DNA from: Ignavibacteria bacterium
GTDB taxonomy: Bacteria > Bacteroidota > Ignavibacteria > Ignavibacteriales > SURF-24
Assembly: GCA_025612375.1 (NCBI GenBank)
Contig: JAAXKN010000005.1
Coordinates: 62,001 to 126,000 of the forward strand
Reading direction: 5' to 3'
Length of the DNA: 64,000 nt
Positions 8,329 through 22,780 of the stretch are shown one piece after another. Within the stretch, counting starts at the first letter, position 1. Each line of letters begins with the position of its first letter. Under the pieces are notes generated by a model. The model had not been told where the DNA came from. It made no database searches and saw nothing but the letters and a program-made list of their open reading frames with translations. The position numbers and the translations under genes were made by a program.

Positions 8329-9609
8329 TCAGCCATAGATACCGCGAATTTTCAGTGTATTGGCTACTTTATTAATTGCGAGCACATAGGCGCCCAGTCT
8401 TAAGGACACTTTATAAGTTTCGGCATGATGATAAACGTTGTCAAAAGCCTCATGCATCATTCTTTCAAGGCGCCTGTTTACGCGGTTAAGCGACCAGAAA
8501 TAGCCGGTGCGGTCCTGCACCCATTCAAAATAGGATACAGTAACCCCGCCCGCATTGGCAAGGATATCGGGAATAACGAGAATGCCCTTATCCTCCAGAA
8601 TCGGGTCGGCTGCAGCGGTAGTGGGCCCGTTTGCGCCTTCGGTAATAATTTTACAGCGGAGCTTAGGCGCATTATACTTTGTAATCTGGTCCTCCTTTGC
8701 CGCCGGCACTAGCACGTCGCAGGGAAGTTCCAGAAGCTCCTCATTTGTTATTTCTTCGGCCTCCGGGAAGCCCGAAAGCGCCTTATTCCTAGAAAAATAC
8801 TCCATTACCTGAGGGATGCTGATCCCTTTATTATTATAGATAGCGCCGCTTATGTCGCCGAGGCCAACGATCTTAATACCCTTTTCGTGCAGGAGCTGTG
8901 CCGAGACGCTTCCGACGTTGCCGAAGCCCTGAACCACGGCCGTTGCACTTTCGGGGTTAATGCCCATTTTCTTCAGGGCCGCAATGGAGACCATGGTGAC
9001 GCCTCTTCCTGTAGCCTCCCTTCTGCCTAGAGAGCCGCCTAAAATGAGCGGTTTACCCGTAACCACGGCCCTGGTAGTGGTTTTGGTATGCATGCTGTAT
9101 GTATCCATAACCCAGGCCATAACCTGCTCATTAGTATTCATATCGGGAGCAGGTATATCTTTTTCAGGGCCGAAAATGTCCAGCAGGTTTGAAGTAAACC
9201 TGCGGGTTAATTTTTCAAGCTCATTCATGCTAAGCTTCGAAGGGTCGCACCTGATGCCTCCCTTGGCGCCTCCGAAAGGGATATTGACCACGGCGCATTT
9301 CCAGGTCATCCAGGCCGCCAGGGCCTTCATTTCATCCAGATTGACGTCGGGAGCAAAGCGCAGGCCGCCTTTTGAAGGGCCGAGAATATCGTTATGGATC
9401 ACGCGGTAGCCTTCGAAGACCTGGATATTGCCGTTATCCATTATTATAGGGATTGAGGTAATTACCTGCTTAACAGGAGACTTTAAGTATTGATAAGCAC
9501 CATTTTCAAGGCCGAGGATTTGAGCTGCTTTCTCAAAGCGGGCCATCATAGATTCAAACGGATTCATTTTATCGGTAATAGGAGCGGGTTCTTTATAAGT
9601 ATGTTCCAT
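8329..9609 (-). CDS. gdhA: Glutamate dehydrogenase (Glu/Leu/Phe/Val dehydrogenase family)
   Basis: A 426-residue dehydrogenase of the hexameric small-GDH type. The substrate domain has GGLRFAPDV and the active-site lysine motif PFGGAKGGIRCDP (about residues 115-127). The Rossmann domain has GFGNVGSVSAQLL (about 230-242). The length and the sequence GGAKGG fit NAD(P)-dependent glutamate dehydrogenase, interconverting glutamate and 2-oxoglutarate plus ammonia. Cofactor preference cannot be fixed by eye. The ATG at 9609 has AAGGAG eight bases upstream, and a good promoter candidate lies 36-64 bases further upstream. It appears to be transcribed alone or with the following unknown gene. Confidence 0.93.
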   Translation of the reverse strand: MEHTYKEPAPITDKMNPFESMMARFEKAAQILGLENGAYQYLKSPVKQVITSIPIIMDNGNIQVFEGYRVIHNDILGPSKGGLRFAPDVNLDEMKALAAWMTWKCAVVNIPFGGAKGGIRCDPSKLSMNELEKLTRRFTSNLLDIFGPEKDIPAPDMNTNEQVMAWVMDTYSMHTKTTTRAVVTGKPLILGGSLGRREATGRGVTMVSIAALKKMGINPESATAVVQGFGNVGSVSAQLLHEKGIKIVGLGDISGAIYNNKGISIPQVMEYFSRNKALSGFPEAEEITNEELLELPCDVLVPAAKEDQITKYNAPKLRCKIITEGANGPTTAAADPILEDKGILVIPDILANAGGVTVSYFEWVQDRTGYFWSLNRVNRRLERMMHEAFDNVYHHAETYKVSLRLGAYVLAINKVANTLKIRGIYG

Positions 9610-10197: not shown

Positions 10198-10551
10198 ATG
10201 ACAAGTAAAGATGAGGTAGAATCATTTCTTAATGATTTGCGTGCTAAATTATCGGTTTACAAGATTTTCTATTATAACAGAGAAAAGAATAAACAGGCTT
10301 TATTAGACCTGGAAATTACTCCTTTGCAAAGGGATGAGTTTATCAGGAACCTGAAAGCAGAGGATTACTTTGGCGGTCCCAAGCCGGATACAAATGACGT
10401 CACCCTGCCGGATTACTGGGAGTTTGGAATTACAGTAAAAGCACGTGAAGTATACATAAAAATTTCCATTGGCAAAGCAGCAAGGCCAGTAATTTGCATG
10501 TCATTTCATTTAGCAGAAAGAAAGATAACGTACCCATATAAAAATGCATAA
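10198..10551 (+). CDS. MqsR-like toxin (RelE superfamily mRNA interferase)
   Basis: A 117-residue small protein encoded directly before a Zn-finger/HTH antitoxin. Its layout resembles MqsR-family toxins: an N-terminal helix, ALLDLEITPLQRDEFIRNL (about 36-54), then a beta-rich C-terminal half with YWEFGITVKAREVYIKISI (about 75-93) and a closing strand. Known MqsR cleaves mRNA at GCU sites; activity here is not shown. The toxin precedes its antitoxin, as in E. coli mqsRA, with the stop six bases from the antitoxin's ribosome binding region. It is one of few plus-strand genes and lies in the accessory island. Confidence 0.65.
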   Translation: MTSKDEVESFLNDLRAKLSVYKIFYYNREKNKQALLDLEITPLQRDEFIRNLKAEDYFGGPKPDTNDVTLPDYWEFGITVKAREVYIKISIGKAARPVICMSFHLAERKITYPYKNA

Positions 10552-10561
10552 GAGGGATAAT

Positions 10562-11569
10562 ATGGACAGGATAGTTCAATGCGGCTTATGTGACGGGCAG
10601 GCAGAGTTGGTTACAGAGAAAAGGGAAAGAGAGTTCAGGAAAGAAAAATTTGCAATTTCGGAACATTATTATAAGTGTACAGCCTGCGGTGAGGACTTTA
10701 CAACCACAGAACTCGACGAGATTGATACTCTCCAGGTATACAATCAATACAGGGAAAAGTACAAAATTCTCTTCCCCGTTCAGATCAAATCCTTAAGAGA
10801 AAAGTTTGGGCTCTCGGCCCCAAAGATGTCGGAAATATTAGGTTTCGGCATTAACATATACAAGAATTATGAAAAAGGTGAAGTTCCCAATCAAAGCAAC
10901 GCCACACTGCTGAAACTTATTCAGTCGCCAGCAGAGTTCAAAAAGCTTCTTGAAATGAAAAGAGAGCTGTTTGACAGCCACGAATACGCCAGGGTGATTT
11001 CTTACATAAACTCCCTTATTGAAAACGAGCCTGAATGTCCGGCTGAAATCAGCGTCTTATGGAATGAAGCAGAAATTCCGAATGAGTATACGGGATATAC
11101 AATTCCCTCCTTTGAAAAGTTTGCAAACATGGTGCTTTACTTTTTAAGCATTGCACAATTCAAGGTCAGGCTGAATAAATTATTATTTTACGCCGACTTC
11201 CTTAATTTCAAGTACAGCGGGTATTCAATATCGGGTTTAAGATATCAGGCCATACAGATGGGACCCGTAGTTTACAGGTACGGTTCAAATTTCGATCTTC
11301 TGCAGGAGAACGGGTACCTGGAAGCCGGGTCGGTTTTAATTAAAGATGAGTATCACGAAAAATTTGCCGGGGCAAAGGATTTTGATGAAAGTGTTTTCAC
11401 AAAAGAGGAGCTTGCAATTTTAGGCGGGGTATATGAAAAGTTCAAAGGATTTTCCACAGAAGAGTTAAAAGAGATGAGTCACAAAGAGACCGGCTGGATA
11501 AATGAAAACCAGAAGAAGGGTTTTATCAGCTATCAGAAGTACGGGTTTGATTTGAATGTAAATTTATAA
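10562..11569 (+). CDS. Large antitoxin: MqsA-type Zn finger, HTH and Panacea/SocA-like domain
   Basis: About 335 residues from the ATG at 10562, chosen because AGAGGG stands five bases before it. An in-frame ATG at 10544 would overlap the toxin gene but lacks such a site. Cysteines 7, 10, 39 and 42 (CGLC, CTAC) form a zinc-binding N-terminus as in MqsA/YgiT. An XRE-type HTH follows (about 62-105, FGLSAPKMSEILGFG ... YEKGEVPNQSNATL). The C-terminal part (about 175-320, KLLFYADFLNFKYSG ... MGPVVYRYG) matches the Panacea/SocA-like (DUF4065) domain found in many unrelated antitoxins. Presumed role: neutralise the upstream toxin and repress the operon. Confidence 0.75.
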   Translation: MDRIVQCGLCDGQAELVTEKREREFRKEKFAISEHYYKCTACGEDFTTTELDEIDTLQVYNQYREKYKILFPVQIKSLREKFGLSAPKMSEILGFGINIYKNYEKGEVPNQSNATLLKLIQSPAEFKKLLEMKRELFDSHEYARVISYINSLIENEPECPAEISVLWNEAEIPNEYTGYTIPSFEKFANMVLYFLSIAQFKVRLNKLLFYADFLNFKYSGYSISGLRYQAIQMGPVVYRYGSNFDLLQENGYLEAGSVLIKDEYHEKFAGAKDFDESVFTKEELAILGGVYEKFKGFSTEELKEMSHKETGWINENQKKGFISYQKYGFDLNVNL

Positions 11570-12598: not shown

Positions 12599-13335
12599 TT
12601 ATAACCTTATAAGGTTATAATTTATTTCGAACAGATTATTACATTCAGTTATTAATGCGGAATGGTCCGTTTCCCCTTCCAGTCTTGGAGCATGGTCATT
12701 TCCTACATATGAAATGTTTTTATCAAATTCTTTCGTACTGAACACATGATCTATGCGGAAGCCGTTTCCCGCAGGACTGTACCAGCTAAACTCTTTCCTA
12801 TCCACATTCCGTTTTCGCCAGGAATCAATCAGGCCGGAACCTTCCAGACTAGCAAAGGAAACAGCGCAATAAAATGTTATGCCGGGTTCATCTATGTAAT
12901 GCCTGCCTGTATTGAAGTCGCCAATAATCAATCATCTGCTTCCCAAGGCCGGAATAATATTATTTACGATAAAATCGAAAAGAAGCTTCTTTCCTTTTTT
13001 TTGAGCAAAGTAAACACCCATTAAAGAAAACTGCTCAAATCTTATCAGAACTGCTCTTCGGTGCATTCAACAGGCAGATCAATCAAAGGTACAGATTCGA
13101 AATGCAACCTTGAGGCTATAAATACTGTGTTCGTCCTGCGGCTTTCCGGTACGGTGGTTTGCCACCGGTAGCCTTCGTCAAGCAGTTTATTTTTTATAGT
13201 ATCAGAATTCTGGTTATGTCTGAACTCAGTAAGGACAATAACATCAACATTGTATCCTATAATTCTTTTTAGGATTTGGGGAATTCGTTTGCCGCCACCA
13301 TGCCTGATATTCAGTTCAAACAGTTTAATACTCAT
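12599..13335 (-). pseudogene. Broken endonuclease/exonuclease/phosphatase family gene
   Basis: The 5' part (13335-13045) encodes MSIKLFELNIRHGGGKRIP ... VIVLTEFRHN, the start of an EEP-fold nuclease with the N-terminal Asn and the catalytic Glu in TEF. It stops at TGA after CTEEQF. In another frame the sequence continues as IRFEQFSLMGVYFAQKKGKK ... IIPALGSR, then an in-frame TGA at 12932-12934, then LIIGDFNTGRHYID ... GNGFRIDHVF ... ETDHSAL, carrying the GDFN and DH motifs. One frameshift near 13045 and one nonsense codon thus split a gene of about 245 codons. It is almost certainly inactive. Confidence 0.8.
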
Positions 13336-13499
13336 TCGTCTTTACCAATCAAATAATTTAACTCCCGATTTATTATATGTAAAAAGAACTAAAGAAAATA
13401 TAATTTCTGCGACAAACACAGAACTGATACTCCTCATAATTTATTAAGTCAATCAGAAAAAAAATAAGACTTCGCCAAAAGAATTTTCGCAAAATCCTT

Positions 13500-16400
13500 T
13501 CAGCTATAATCCGCACTTTCTAAGACTTTACGTACACTGAATTGAAGTTCCGGAATTTGTAACAATTTATCAAAGATATCCATTGCTTTTTCACAATAGG
13601 ACTCCTTGGAATAAAGCAGCAATTTATTATATGCTCCTATTAATATTTGTACAGGTTCATCAGAAATGGAACTTTCCTGAAGATCAAAATTACTCGTTTC
13701 TAATAAATTTTCTAAAACATCCAGACATTTTTTAGGTTCATATCCAACACATTGCAATAAATACTCAAATATTCGATTATCTGTTCTATTACCTTTTCCC
13801 GACTTATTTTTTGAATAGAGTAATATGTAATTATATAGCTTATTAAAATCCTCAGGTTTAAATTCTCTAAAAGCATATGTATATTCATTTTGTATTATGT
13901 GGGATTCGGATAATAACAATTTCTTGAATATAGTTTCTGCTTTCTTTAATGCAGTGTCATTTTGATGTGGAATATTATAAATTGCCTGTTTTAATAAACC
14001 CGCTTGAAAATCAATCGAGTCATTATACAATTCTTCCAGTAATTTTTTAGCACCCCTAACGTTTTTGATATATAAATACATTACGATTTGGCCAACATAA
14101 TTTTGTCTTTCTCTCACCCTATCACTTCCTTTAATCCTAACAATAGCTCTAAGGTGGTTTTTCAAATAGTTGAATTTCTCATTTATATAGTAGCCTAACA
14201 AATAAACTGAATTTATTAATATATCGTCATTTAAGTCGTTTGAACACCTTTTGTAAATTTCATAAATTTTTTCTGGATCTAGATTTACCAAATGATGTAG
14301 ATTAGCTATTGCTGCACATTTCACAGAAATATTGTTACAATTTGCTATTTTACTCAATGTTCCCAAAATCTGTTTTTTATAATATGCACAACTCTTAAGT
14401 GTAACAAGAGTAAACACAGCATAGCCTTGTAATGTGTTGATTCCTTTTTGTAAGGAGTCATTTATACTTTCTTCCGGCTCCAAATTATTATTTTCTTCAA
14501 AGTCGATGGAATAAACACATATCTTTGTAAAGAGAAATGGCTCTAAGATCTCAAATTCATCTATGTATTTGATACAATCTATAATTACCGTTCGAAGAAA
14601 CTTATCATTATTAAAATTAATTAGGTAAGTCACCAATTCTTTTATTTTTTTATAATCGTATTTACATGCTAACAATCCGCGTAAAGCCTCCGCAAAGTAT
14701 TCATTTGCAGTTGTTTCCTTCTTGAGATCAAGCAAAAATGGGAAGAATTTATCGGGGTCTTCTTTTATGCATCTACCAAACATTCTTGAATGCTCAATTA
14801 ACCCACCATATTGAAAACCTTTTTTATTTTGATAGCCTTTATCCCATCCAGTTCTATCATTATATTTTTTAAATGAATTTTCCCAGTCCACCAATTGCAT
14901 ATTAAAGTATGCCGTTTCAGGAATAGGAGGTCCCACCCACGAAATCTGAGCGGGTTTTGGTTTCATATTTTGAAATTGTCCAAATTTTCTTTCCAATTCA
15001 TAATATATTCTTCTAATGTGGGAATATTTATTTCGTTCGGATAAGGGGATGGATGAAAGTAGTGCAAATATACTGGCTCCCTTATACTTTCTTAAGTCAC
15101 CTTTATGAATTCTTAGATCCTCTGATTTTAAAATGACTAAGTTGATTTGTTCTTGTCTACTACCATCAAAATAGGCATAGGTTTGATTTAATAATTTTAA
15201 AATATTGTATTTTAATCCTGATTTTAGATCACAATGCTTAATTAAATTTTCTCTTATAAGCAGATAAAATACTTCATCCAAATAACAAACGGGATCACAA
15301 AGAAGTCCTTCAGTTAGTACATACAAAATACTTAATGCATAATCATCTTTATATTCCTCAAAGAATTTTTTAAATATTTTTGGAGTTTTTGCATTATCAA
15401 ATAGAAGTTGGGATGCAAGTTTTATCAAACCCCAGTGTGTTTTTAAGTTATCAAATTCTTCGTGAAGGAAAAATGCATTATCTATGTAATAACCTTCTAA
15501 TTCCAATAGTCTGGTCTTTTCTGAAATATCTTTTATCAATGGTAATGCAAATTCCAAAAACAAAACTGGTTCTTCCTTTGCTAATATTTCAAAGGTTTCA
15601 CCTATCTCATATCCTATAATATTTCTATCAACAGATTGTCTAAACTCAGAAGATGATATTTTTTTAGTTATAAGTTCATTGAGAATTTTTATTGCATAAG
15701 TTGGCGATATTTTAGTAATTCGAGATAACGTTTTAGATAAATGGTATTGATTTCTTGAAAAGAAGTAATCCCTTACTCTATCAAATAGTTGTAATGCTAT
15801 TGGATTATCCCATTCTTTAAGATATAGTATTGTATAATATACAATACTATTGTTTCGTTCATTATTCTCTAAGGAGAATAGAAATTTCAGGATGGGACCC
15901 GGATTGCTTTCAATCAGCCTGTATTCTATCATCCATTCACATGAGCGACTTAACAAATTATCGCAACTGTTAAGAAATTTCATGATAAATCCCTCTTTAT
16001 CGAGATAATAAAACCACTCAATAGTGCAAATGGACTCAATAAAATACTTTACATCCTTATTATTGGTTAATACTTTGTTTTTAATGATTTCCCATTCAGA
16101 TGGGAGCACATTTTCTTCCGACCCCAATAGATTAAGTATGAGTAATTTTATATGAAATCGTACTTTTGGGGAAGTAAGTAATACAATTAGGTTTTCGTTA
16201 TACGATTCTAGATTGACTCCTCTTAAATAACTTAAAACATTTTTTATTGTTGATCTAGCAAACAGGCCTTGATGCTGTTCTAAAACATATTCCGATATAT
16301 TCTTCCGCCCTTTTACAAACGCTCTTGAGAAACAATACTCAAAGAATGACTGATGAAAAAATTGCAGCTGATTTCTTTCCTCTTTCAAAATTCCTTCGCT

Positions 16401-18020
16401 TAATAAATAATTTAATGCAGAGGTAAATTCATCTTCATATATCAATTTCGGAACATTTAACTTTTGGTCTTCTGACATTTCAATAGCAATTTTCTCCAAA
16501 AGTTGAACATACTCTCCTGATTTTTCAGGAATTGAAAGAATTTTTTTTATCCAGAACTCATTGTACAAATCCTGCAAAGTATGTATTGAATCTAGATCTA
16601 TATTTTTTCCATAAATTGTACAAAATATATTTAGATTCTGGGGGTTGGCAATTAACTTTTTTAGGACTTTCGGAATTTGATCATAATTTATATCCAGCAT
16701 ATCTGTAACACTCTTGACTTCTTCATCATGCAATTCGCCTATTGAGATTCTAGATTGCTGATCTAAGTGCCTTAATAACGGATCATAAGTTAAATCATAG
16801 TCCCGACAAGAAATAATTATTCTTAGATTTTTGATATTTGATATACGGTTTATAAAATCGAAGTAAAAATTAATAGAACTTCTATCATTTGAAAGGACTA
16901 ATGATAATGAATCAATTTGATCTATTATCACAACACACATTTCTTTTTCAGTAATCGTATTAACAATTTTCATTAAATCATCACTTAGATTTAATTTCAG
17001 TTTTAATTCATTATAATTTGTAACACCTATCAGATCTATTTTAATAGCCAGTATACATTTGCCTTTTTCTTTCAATTTCTTAACAACATCTTGTAATATG
17101 ATTGTTTTTCCACAACCAGCTTTCCCTGTTAATAGTAATATCGGTTTCCTAAGTTCTTCTTTGGGTTTATCAACCCATTCAATAACTTTTAAAACTTCTT
17201 CTCTAATCTTATGCGAATCTGATAATTTCCCAAAAATATTTGTCCAATTAATCAATGAGCGGGAAATATTATCAAACTCTTTCTTAATTTCCGAAAAGTC
17301 AATGGAACTTAATAAGCAAAATCCCTCCTTCTCTAACATCTTTTTTAAATATTCTTGATCAACAATCCCCCTGCCTCCAATGTCTTTAGCAAGTTGATAT
17401 AAATAATATGCAATTCCCGATTCATTTGTAATCCTGCCTTTAAATAAATTTCCGATCAGATTTATATATTCATCTTGCTCATATCCACGCTTAAATCTTA
17501 CGAGCTTTGATAATTCGATAATTTCCTCATAATTAAGGCCTATATAATGTTTGAACTTTTCTAATTCTGCAAAATCACTTTGTGCTGAAACACGTAATTT
17601 TATTTCTTTAAGCGAGTTGCATTCACAAAGTTGAGGGAAAATAGAGCTAAATAAGGGGCAAGGGCTTTGACTTACAAAGGTAATTTTAACGCTGGGATTA
17701 TTCTTATATTGATTTTTGATTTGAGAAATCACCCCTTGATTACTCAACCGGCCTGAAGTCCATTTTGTTTCAGAAGGTGCGATATATTTAATATTATAGG
17801 AAGTTATCTCATTCTTCTTATATATTATTAGATCATCAATAAAATTACGACTAGCACTATTTTGTTTGGAATTTTCTTGATCGGCGTTGGAATAAACGAC
17901 ATTGGCTTCTGCCTGTATTTTCATCGACTGGTCAAAAAACATTTTCCCCAATTGGTATGCAATAAACCAGTATTGGTAGCTATACCCCCTACCACCGGCT
18001 ACTCCACCACGATTTGCCAT
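13500..18020 (-). CDS. Giant STAND NTPase with predicted N-terminal nuclease (probable anti-phage protein)
   Basis: About 1,506 residues from the ATG at 18020, which has GGGTGA upstream; a GTG at 18029 is the alternative. Residues 1-150 start with a GG-x-GYSYQ motif and carry IDDL (61-64) and E71 ... NIK (76-78). This resembles the PD-(D/E)xK pattern of Cap4/DUF4297-type nucleases. The NTPase core has Walker A GKAGCGKT (299-306), Walker B VVIIDQID (363-370) and ISCRDYD (403-409). More than 900 residues of helical repeat-like sequence follow, as in sensor regions of STAND/Avs proteins. The gene is visibly more AT-rich than its neighbours, indicating transfer. Phage sensing and nuclease action are inferred from architecture. 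Confidence 0.75.
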   Translation of the reverse strand: MANRGGVAGGRGYSYQYWFIAYQLGKMFFDQSMKIQAEANVVYSNADQENSKQNSASRNFIDDLIIYKKNEITSYNIKYIAPSETKWTSGRLSNQGVISQIKNQYKNNPSVKITFVSQSPCPLFSSIFPQLCECNSLKEIKLRVSAQSDFAELEKFKHYIGLNYEEIIELSKLVRFKRGYEQDEYINLIGNLFKGRITNESGIAYYLYQLAKDIGGRGIVDQEYLKKMLEKEGFCLLSSIDFSEIKKEFDNISRSLINWTNIFGKLSDSHKIREEVLKVIEWVDKPKEELRKPILLLTGKAGCGKTIILQDVVKKLKEKGKCILAIKIDLIGVTNYNELKLKLNLSDDLMKIVNTITEKEMCVVIIDQIDSLSLVLSNDRSSINFYFDFINRISNIKNLRIIISCRDYDLTYDPLLRHLDQQSRISIGELHDEEVKSVTDMLDINYDQIPKVLKKLIANPQNLNIFCTIYGKNIDLDSIHTLQDLYNEFWIKKILSIPEKSGEYVQLLEKIAIEMSEDQKLNVPKLIYEDEFTSALNYLLSEGILKEERNQLQFFHQSFFEYCFSRAFVKGRKNISEYVLEQHQGLFARSTIKNVLSYLRGVNLESYNENLIVLLTSPKVRFHIKLLILNLLGSEENVLPSEWEIIKNKVLTNNKDVKYFIESICTIEWFYYLDKEGFIMKFLNSCDNLLSRSCEWMIEYRLIESNPGPILKFLFSLENNERNNSIVYYTILYLKEWDNPIALQLFDRVRDYFFSRNQYHLSKTLSRITKISPTYAIKILNELITKKISSSEFRQSVDRNIIGYEIGETFEILAKEEPVLFLEFALPLIKDISEKTRLLELEGYYIDNAFFLHEEFDNLKTHWGLIKLASQLLFDNAKTPKIFKKFFEEYKDDYALSILYVLTEGLLCDPVCYLDEVFYLLIRENLIKHCDLKSGLKYNILKLLNQTYAYFDGSRQEQINLVILKSEDLRIHKGDLRKYKGASIFALLSSIPLSERNKYSHIRRIYYELERKFGQFQNMKPKPAQISWVGPPIPETAYFNMQLVDWENSFKKYNDRTGWDKGYQNKKGFQYGGLIEHSRMFGRCIKEDPDKFFPFLLDLKKETTANEYFAEALRGLLACKYDYKKIKELVTYLINFNNDKFLRTVIIDCIKYIDEFEILEPFLFTKICVYSIDFEENNNLEPEESINDSLQKGINTLQGYAVFTLVTLKSCAYYKKQILGTLSKIANCNNISVKCAAIANLHHLVNLDPEKIYEIYKRCSNDLNDDILINSVYLLGYYINEKFNYLKNHLRAIVRIKGSDRVRERQNYVGQIVMYLYIKNVRGAKKLLEELYNDSIDFQAGLLKQAIYNIPHQNDTALKKAETIFKKLLLSESHIIQNEYTYAFREFKPEDFNKLYNYILLYSKNKSGKGNRTDNRIFEYLLQCVGYEPKKCLDVLENLLETSNFDLQESSISDEPVQILIGAYNKLLLYSKESYCEKAMDIFDKLLQIPELQFSVRKVLESADYS

Positions 18021-18138
18021 TATTATCACCCACTTTTGAGTATTTAACGAATATAGTTAGTTGTAATTTTGAATTAGAAAGAATTTTCGATCTAAAGAAT
18101 AAAGTTACTCATTGAAATAACCTCATTAATTTCTTTAT

Positions 18139-18654
18139 TTAAAAATTGTTTATATCGTTTATCTGGCAGTAGCGCAGGCCGTCTGTTGGAAGGCCGGGCA
18201 GGTCGTTCAGTCGTCTGCGGAGCGAATTTCCCCTTTTAATGTGCTCGCGGAAAGTTTCAGGCTTATGGAATGAAAATGTATTCCTGGAGCGGGGCATAGG
18301 GTCGCGGTAATCGGTAAAGCGCGTAATGAGTCCTGTGCTTTCATACACGAACGGAAGAGGATCATTGTTCAGGAATTTGAGTTTGCTTTCGGCGTACCCG
18401 GAGGACTGGTCCTCCACGGATGTAAGGTGAAGCCCTTCCTCTTCCCTTTTAGCTTCAATTATCCCTACGGGCTTTTTATCCACAAAAAGGATATAGTCGG
18501 CCGGGCCTGCATCGGTCTGGTATTCCCTTACGGCAACGCCCATGGCGGCAGAAAGATTAATTTTCTTCTTATCTTGGATCACCCAGCCGCAGGCTATTAG
18601 CTGGCGGTCGATATTATCTCTAGCTTCCTGTTCCGGATTCTTATTCATTGCCAA
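18139..18654 (-). pseudogene. Truncated type I restriction subunit HsdR (N-terminal nuclease domain only)
   Basis: A 171-residue frame equal to the N-terminal domain of HsdR. The PD-(D/E)xK nuclease pattern is intact: D53 in GPADYILFV and E67-A-K69 in GIIEAK. Homology to HsdR runs to LPTDGLRYCQI, the point where the DEAD-like helicase part should begin. It then reads NDINNF and stops. The roughly 800 helicase residues are missing, and no hsdM or hsdS is nearby. The lost part is replaced by the giant NTPase gene, which starts 119 bases further on. It is a remnant, though a stand-alone nuclease domain cannot be excluded. Confidence 0.75.
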
Positions 18655-18718
18655 ATACTGAAATTACGGAGCATAATTTACATTTTTTATCGGTTAAAAG
18701 TAATATTTATGCTTAAAA

Positions 18719-18802
18719 GCGCTCCCGGTTACATAATTCGGGAGACTCCTTTATAATATATATGGTGACGGGGGGCGTTTTCGGAAAATTTTTGTGAAAA
18801 TA
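18719..18802. repeat. Intergenic repeat, copy 1 of 3
   Basis: A hairpin (CTCCCG 18722-18727 with CGGGAG 18739-18744 around an ACATAAT loop) is followed by the conserved core TATATATGGTGACG (18757-18770) and CGTTTTCGGAAAATTTTTG. It lies just upstream of the hsdR remnant on the minus strand, in a 241-base gap with no other feature. The same core recurs at 20.80 and 22.70 kb in the same orientation. Confidence 0.75.
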
Positions 18803-18895
18803 ATTATTTTTTTGCTGGATTGGGGAACGTTGTATGATTTTTTAGGTGGCAATTGAAGTAAAATATTTAGCGTCGGACATTAATTTTAGATGCGG

Positions 18896-20650: not shown

Positions 20651-20766
20651 TGTCCCAATATAGGTTTGAGTTATTAATAATAAATTATATTACAGATCGA
20701 AATTATAGTTGTATTTATTTCTATATACCATTCCGGGTATTGCGGCACATATGAATAGCCTAAAAA

Positions 20767-20850
20767 GCTCCCCCGGCAACATAATCCGGGAGATTATTTT
20801 GTTATATTTATGGTGACGCGGGTCGTTTTCGGAAATTTTTTGTGAAAATA
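20767..20850. repeat. Intergenic repeat, copy 2 of 3
   Basis: GC-rich hairpin arms around CAACATAAT (20768-20792) are followed by the shared core TTATGGTGACG (20807-20817) and TCGTTTTCGGAAATTTTTTG. The arms differ in sequence from copy 1 yet still pair. The surrounding 585-base gap (20492-21076) otherwise holds the XRE operator sites and no convincing gene. Confidence 0.75.
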
Positions 20851-21076
20851 AATAAAAAAAGGTTCGAAAAATTTTAATTGGTCCCAATGCAAAATTAAAA
20901 GGTAAGGCGCAATTGGGTAAGTCCTGGTGGGTTTCAGAATACAAAAAGCCCGGAATCAGCAAAAAGTAACTGTCTCCGGGCAATATTCTTTCTTCAGCGG
21001 AAAGAGTGGGATTTTGCGCACACTGCCCTAAGAATAGCGGCTTACAGGGAAAGCACATATTAATTCTTTATTATTT

Positions 21077-22689: not shown

Positions 22690-22745
22690 CTTACATAATA
22701 TATATATGGTGACGAGAGTCGTTTTCGGAAAATTTTGTGAAAATA
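22690..22745. repeat. Intergenic repeat, copy 3 of 3
   Basis: TTACATAATATATATATGGTGACG (start 22691) and TCGTTTTCGGAAAATTTTG match the cores of copies 1 and 2, without the GC-rich hairpin arms. It lies just upstream of a leftward lipoprotein gene. Confidence 0.7.
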
Positions 22746-22780
22746 TTTTTTTTGGGGGAATTGGGGGATTTGAATATTTT

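Follow-up and report, generated by a model that had tools for sequence, protein, structure and literature searches.

We analyzed one gene in a 64,000-nucleotide stretch of an Ignavibacteria bacterium genome (contig JAAXKN010000005.1, positions 62,001 to 126,000 of the forward strand; hereafter the window). A preliminary description of this DNA, made from the letters alone, had reported a 1,506-residue protein at 13500-18020 without stating its strand. The reading frame was found intact on the minus strand, and its product probably acts as an Avs-like immune receptor. The features of the gene are as follows:

13500..18020, minus strand: gene for a 1,506-amino-acid (aa) Avs-like STAND protein with nuclease, NTPase and solenoid sensor (intact open reading frame, homologues)
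17286..18020, minus strand: Cap4-type PD-(D/E)xK nuclease domain, residues 1-245, putative site D63, N76, K78 (profile matches, AlphaFold2 model, Foldseek)
16221..17210, minus strand: STAND NTPase (Walker A K305, Walker B D367-D370, R406) and winged-helix part (H556), residues ~271-600 (Pfam, PADLOC, hhalign, conservation)
13503..16220, minus strand: HEAT-like alpha-solenoid, the presumed sensor, residues ~601-1506 (AlphaFold2 confidence of 87, generic HEAT-solenoid matches, family conservation, match to 9n00)
18021..18034, minus strand: ribosome-binding-like GGGTGATA stretch upstream of the ATG at 18020 (direct reading of the sequence)

Counted from a GTG, the single uninterrupted open reading frame (ORF) spans 13500-18029; the ATG at 18020, preceded by GGGTGATA, is the likelier start and gives the 1,506-aa product. 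Homologues cover residues ~217-1504 at 26-29% identity, indicating that the ORF is a real coding sequence and excluding chance. The G+C content of the gene's patch is 30%, against ~44% over most of the window, and no second copy of the gene was found in its own genome.

Residues 1-225 were not recognized in a Pfam scan. An AlphaFold2 model of residues 1-245, built on an alignment of 13 sequences, reached a mean predicted local distance difference test score (pLDDT) of 84.8 and a predicted template modelling score (pTM) of 0.82, and its elements (helix, strand, weak helix, two strands, two helices, strand) follow the order of PD-(D/E)xK nucleases. When searched with Foldseek, this model had Avs3 (8dgc, 4.3e-6) as its top solved match, followed by LmuA, HerA-DUF4297, AbpA (an entry labelled Hachiman of E. 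coli) and Cap4. A profile of the N-terminal region, from which close relatives of the solved structure 9n00 were omitted, matched 9n00 (1.9e-7) and AbpA (8zue, 7.6e-6); one further hit of that search, to a designed helical protein, was treated as noise. The N-terminal PD-(D/E)xK/Cap4-like nuclease proposed in the preliminary description thus has a nuclease fold in the model, and the IDDL and NIK (76-78) motifs noted there lie inside the aligned nuclease motif. A Cap4-type PD-(D/E)xK fold is therefore well supported, as a predicted structure, for residues 1-245.

The metal site consists of D50, E67 and K69 in Cap4 and of D45, Q58 and K60 in AbpA, in which the substitutions Q58A and K60A each abolish defence (PMC10732053). 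The counterparts in our protein are D63, N76 and K78, with the D63-N76 spacing equal to that of D45-Q58 in AbpA and an Asn at the middle position in place of the Glu of Cap4 and the Gln of AbpA. In the alignment with N-terminal relatives, G6, G12, K78 and W87 are invariant, D62 is nearly so, and D63 is invariant among the three closest of them. The unusual Asn recurs in the nearest N-terminal relative (locus L026, 32-34% identity), which has the same N-x-K. Nuclease activity of the domain is likely. The L026 domain (8473-9009, genome G373) is a stand-alone 178-aa N-x-K Cap4-like domain that ends early, right behind two genes that read as AbiE-like, and it may be a remnant or a split form.

In the NTPase part, 94-100% of 87 aligned sequences keep Walker A GKAGCGKT (K305), Walker B VIIDQID (D367/D370), R406 and the FFHQ of the winged helix (H556), and K305, D367, D370, R406, H556 and R589 are each kept in 99-100% of the aligned family, in agreement with the clear Walker A and B of the preliminary description. 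Over residues 296-425, Pfam gave AAA (2.3e-7) and nSTAND3 (8.7e-7). An hmmscan of all PADLOC models returned only the phage defence candidate PDC-M54A, Avs2 and weak AAA-type matches, leaving the Avs1, Avs3, Avs4 and Avs5 models unmatched. PDC-M54A was the best of these (E value 2.1e-23, over the NTPase and winged-helix part) and Avs2 was weak; the PDC-M54A match covers only model positions 196-672 of 1,621-1,657 and ends at residue ~620, before the sensor. When the family profile was compared with the Avs2 profile by hhalign, the two aligned at 98.8% probability (E value 4.5e-17, columns 274-657). Judged by sequence comparison, this is a STAND-type NTPase that shares homology with Avs2 over the NTPase and winged-helix part.

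The remainder of the protein is a long solenoid. A model of residues 535-1506 (alignment of 72 sequences, pLDDT 87.1, pTM 0.72) was nearly all helix in paired repeats, in agreement with the helical repeat region of more than 900 residues described earlier. Foldseek matched it, at low template modelling (TM) scores, to HEAT solenoids of the importin, transportin and CAND1 kind. The matches to importins and CAND1 had TM scores of 0.16-0.29 and root-mean-square deviations (rmsd) of 17-53 Å, and we read them as generic solenoid resemblance rather than kinship; they indicate a HEAT-like solenoid only, and nothing about the ligand can be inferred from them. Residues 620-1506 had zero matches in the Pfam, NCBIfam and PADLOC libraries. 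The region is conserved across the aligned family, and its profile, with close relatives of 9n00 left out, matches 9n00 at 3.7e-24.

We made the profile-profile comparison of sensors with Avs2, and compared other Avs types by PADLOC models and PDB chains (Avs3 and Avs4). The Avs2 sensor, in a profile from only 5 sequences, aligned with the family sensor at 1.1% probability over 19 columns. No match at E<1 was obtained between the sensor profile and the Avs3 and Avs4 PDB chains, and neither was among the 50 best Foldseek matches of the sensor model. By sensor homology, judged from these sequence profiles, the protein is not Avs2. The earlier statement that the sensor resembles no nameable family therefore holds for Pfam, NCBIfam, PADLOC and the Avs2 sensor, but has to be amended in that the sensor is part of a broad family, one distant member of which, 9n00, has been solved. 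Its further suggestion that the trigger may be new is a reasonable one.

One protein thus contains the general Avs/AVAST tripartite layout of N-terminal effector, central STAND NTPase and C-terminal repeat sensor, with all three parts recognized, as had been proposed. Its closest solved counterpart is the 'AAA family ATPase' of 9n00/9n01/9yix (1,523 aa), to which it is homologous in nuclease, NTPase (1.8e-21) and sensor, although identity, measured via L022, a close relative of 9n00, is only about 22%. No publication naming 9N00, 9N01 or 9YIX was found. Avs3 (SeAvs3, 8dgc) likewise combines a Cap4-type nuclease, a STAND NTPase and a long repeat sensor, but is about 2,000 residues long, and its sensor is unmatched by ours. 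Avs2 (PADLOC PDLC02164) shares the STAND NTPase and winged-helix part, but the Avs2 members retrieved here have an N-terminus of another type (FEE...QLA...WQAK). The Cap4, AbpA, DUF4297 and LmuA nucleases share the fold and the D...K spacing of our N-terminal domain, but are carried by CBASS, AbpAB, HerA-DUF4297 and Lamassu, respectively. The protein is a rare but recognizable cousin of the known Avs anti-phage proteins, and its homology group already includes one distant member of solved structure.

Relatives were collected by a contig search seeded by conserved motifs, and the relative counts that follow describe that sample only. A contig scan with the single query protein found no relatives; when four aligned members served as the query, 80 loci were recovered. 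Besides the window's protein, we aligned 86 full or nearly full proteins, mostly from Bacteroidota, with some from Campylobacterota, Chloroflexota, Pseudomonadota and others; rows from plasmid records were excluded from the structure-prediction alignments. Presence is patchy (13 of 396 genomes of the phylum). Phage records contained no relative, and IMG/VR contained one.

The N-termini of the relatives differ. The majority (about 46-48) are Mrr-like, 12 are of a second restriction-endonuclease-like type, another 12 besides our protein's are Cap4-like (one a duplicate record), and several are small or absent. On a tree of NTPase plus sensor the effector labels require 11 changes against a minimum of 4, and on a more careful tree (NTPase to early sensor) 8 against a minimum of 3. 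Since both exceed the minimum, effectors have been exchanged. The NTPase and sensor are kept while the effector changes, as expected of an effector-sensor receptor. The core of our protein groups with a mostly Bacteroidota, mainly Mrr-type clade (91/98), at its base on a long branch and apart from the other Cap4 proteins; judged from these trees, its Cap4 effector may be a late swap or a retained ancestral effector. We also considered whether the Cap4 effector was acquired only once; the basal position on a long branch fits late swap and ancestral retention alike. In cyanobacterial plasmids (matches H7 and H10-H12, from Nostoc, Tolypothrix and Microchaete), a related NTPase occurs in proteins that carry SEFIR, caspase or pentapeptide-repeat annotations, a sign that effector exchange may reach further still.

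We then compared the locus with other genomes, which added two features:

13341..18610, strand not assigned: exchanged slot, ~5.3 kb absent from same-genus genome G001 (comparison with G001)
18139..18654, minus strand: truncated N-terminus of a type I restriction HsdR, flanking the gene (171 aa; the open frame in G003 has 936 aa)

The genes around the locus are collinear with those of G001, and the slot is bounded by an endonuclease/exonuclease/phosphatase-type gene and a dispersed repeat. Where the window has the 5.3 kb that holds the gene and most of the HsdR fragment, G001 has ~1.9 kb with a gene for a 477-aa TIR/SEFIR protein (L122 12877-14310, TIR_2 9.2e-16). A different immune-type gene in the same slot of a same-genus genome indicates an exchangeable defence slot. 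PIN-like and ImmA/IrrE-type genes lie on one side of the locus and a Panacea/MqsA-type antitoxin gene on the other. The nearest neighbours of 66 relatives include a Hachiman helicase, TIR, a 4TM effector, an integrase and conjugation genes; no recurrent partner was seen, with none in more than 3 of 118 and no control set scanned. The lack of a recurrent neighbour points to a stand-alone single-gene system.

Further features were noted nearby. The endonuclease/exonuclease/phosphatase-type gene (12599-13335) is split into two frames in the window; its counterpart in G001 is one longer frame, of 241 aa. At 10544-11569 lies an antitoxin-like 341-aa fusion of MqsA/HTH and Panacea (SocA-like), adjoining a 117-aa protein without family. 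The dispersed repeat occurs at 18712-18806, 20760-20854 and 22700-22748, with a core of ~45 nucleotides around ATGGTGACG..GTCGTTTTCGGAAAATTTTTGTGAAAA. These three copies follow one another at intervals of ~2 kb next to small sets of toxin-antitoxin-like genes, and one copy marks the edge of the exchanged slot. The repeat, with 38 matches in its own genome and another 27 in the same-genus one, may be a mobile element end or a recombination site.

Taken together, these results make it probable that the gene encodes a single-gene Avs-like STAND immune receptor with a Cap4-type effector, and its mechanism can be proposed by analogy with SeAvs3. There, according to the summary in PMC11291478, binding of a viral protein leads to tetramerization, and DNA is cut by nuclease domains that face inward and act as a dimer; the nucleases of Avs1-4 cut phage and host genomes (PMC12931631). 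In our protein, the solenoid would bind a conserved phage component, probably a protein, whereupon the NTPase would bind ATP and oligomerize. Adjacent Cap4 domains would then pair to form an active DNA endonuclease that cuts the DNA of both phage and host, and the infected cell would die before phage release. Several points weigh against this proposal. TM scores of the nuclease model to known nucleases are moderate (0.49-0.58), and the Pfam Cap4 model PF14130 had no match to the protein at E 0.1 (it matches 2 of 14 aligned relatives, weakly). With N76 at the middle site position, activity of the putative nuclease is not assured, and without detectable homology to the Avs2 sensor, the Avs2 trigger is not transferable.

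With the same architecture and output, the sensor could also respond to something that is not a phage protein; DNA ends, a nucleotide signal, plasmid transfer and gene-transfer agents are examples. The generic resemblance of the solenoid to karyopherins and CAND1 leaves room for such a cue, but HEAT solenoids typically bind proteins. Other Cap4-bearing systems do respond to DNA states or nucleotides, AbpAB to phage Gp32 on single-stranded DNA and Cap4 to cyclic nucleotides (PMC10732053), whereas the Avs proteins studied are activated by phage proteins (PMC12931631). We consider this explanation unlikely.

Less probable still is that the N-terminal domain of the same receptor no longer cuts DNA, owing to N76 in place of Gln/Glu, and acts in DNA binding or oligomerization, or that the gene is decaying. 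The Asn sits exactly where an Ala substitution kills AbpA defence (PMC10732053), and both neighbour genes, for HsdR and the endonuclease/exonuclease/phosphatase-type protein, are broken. The N-x-K shared with L026 nevertheless indicates inheritance rather than a fresh lesion; D63 and K78 are retained at the AbpA spacing, and the 1,506-codon ORF is intact. A housekeeping or regulatory role outside immunity is very improbable: STAND NTPases serve regulation too, as MalT does (PMC10427625), but Cap4-type nucleases are an established part of defence systems (Cap4, Avs3, AbpA, Lamassu, DUF4297), relatives carry Mrr-like or Cap4-like nucleases in the same place, the distribution is patchy, and the slot is shared with a TIR/SEFIR gene.

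Within the receptor interpretation, a more far-reaching reading, somewhat less likely than not, is that NTPase and solenoid together represent an Avs type of their own, so far unnamed. Such a type would be centred on Bacteroidota, exchange its nuclease effectors and recognize a phage trigger that is neither terminase nor portal nor the Avs5 activator; our protein would be an early-branching member with a rare N-x-K Cap4 effector. The N-x-K site offers a direct test of tolerated variation in the Cap4 catalytic motif. Present defence annotation would miss this gene family, spread across Bacteroidota, or label it just 'AAA family ATPase'. Bacterial STAND immune proteins that carry long solenoid sensors are counterparts of the NLR immune receptors, and a sensor absent from Pfam, NCBIfam and PADLOC that stays while its effector varies provides a bounded test of whether one sensor type corresponds to one phage trigger.

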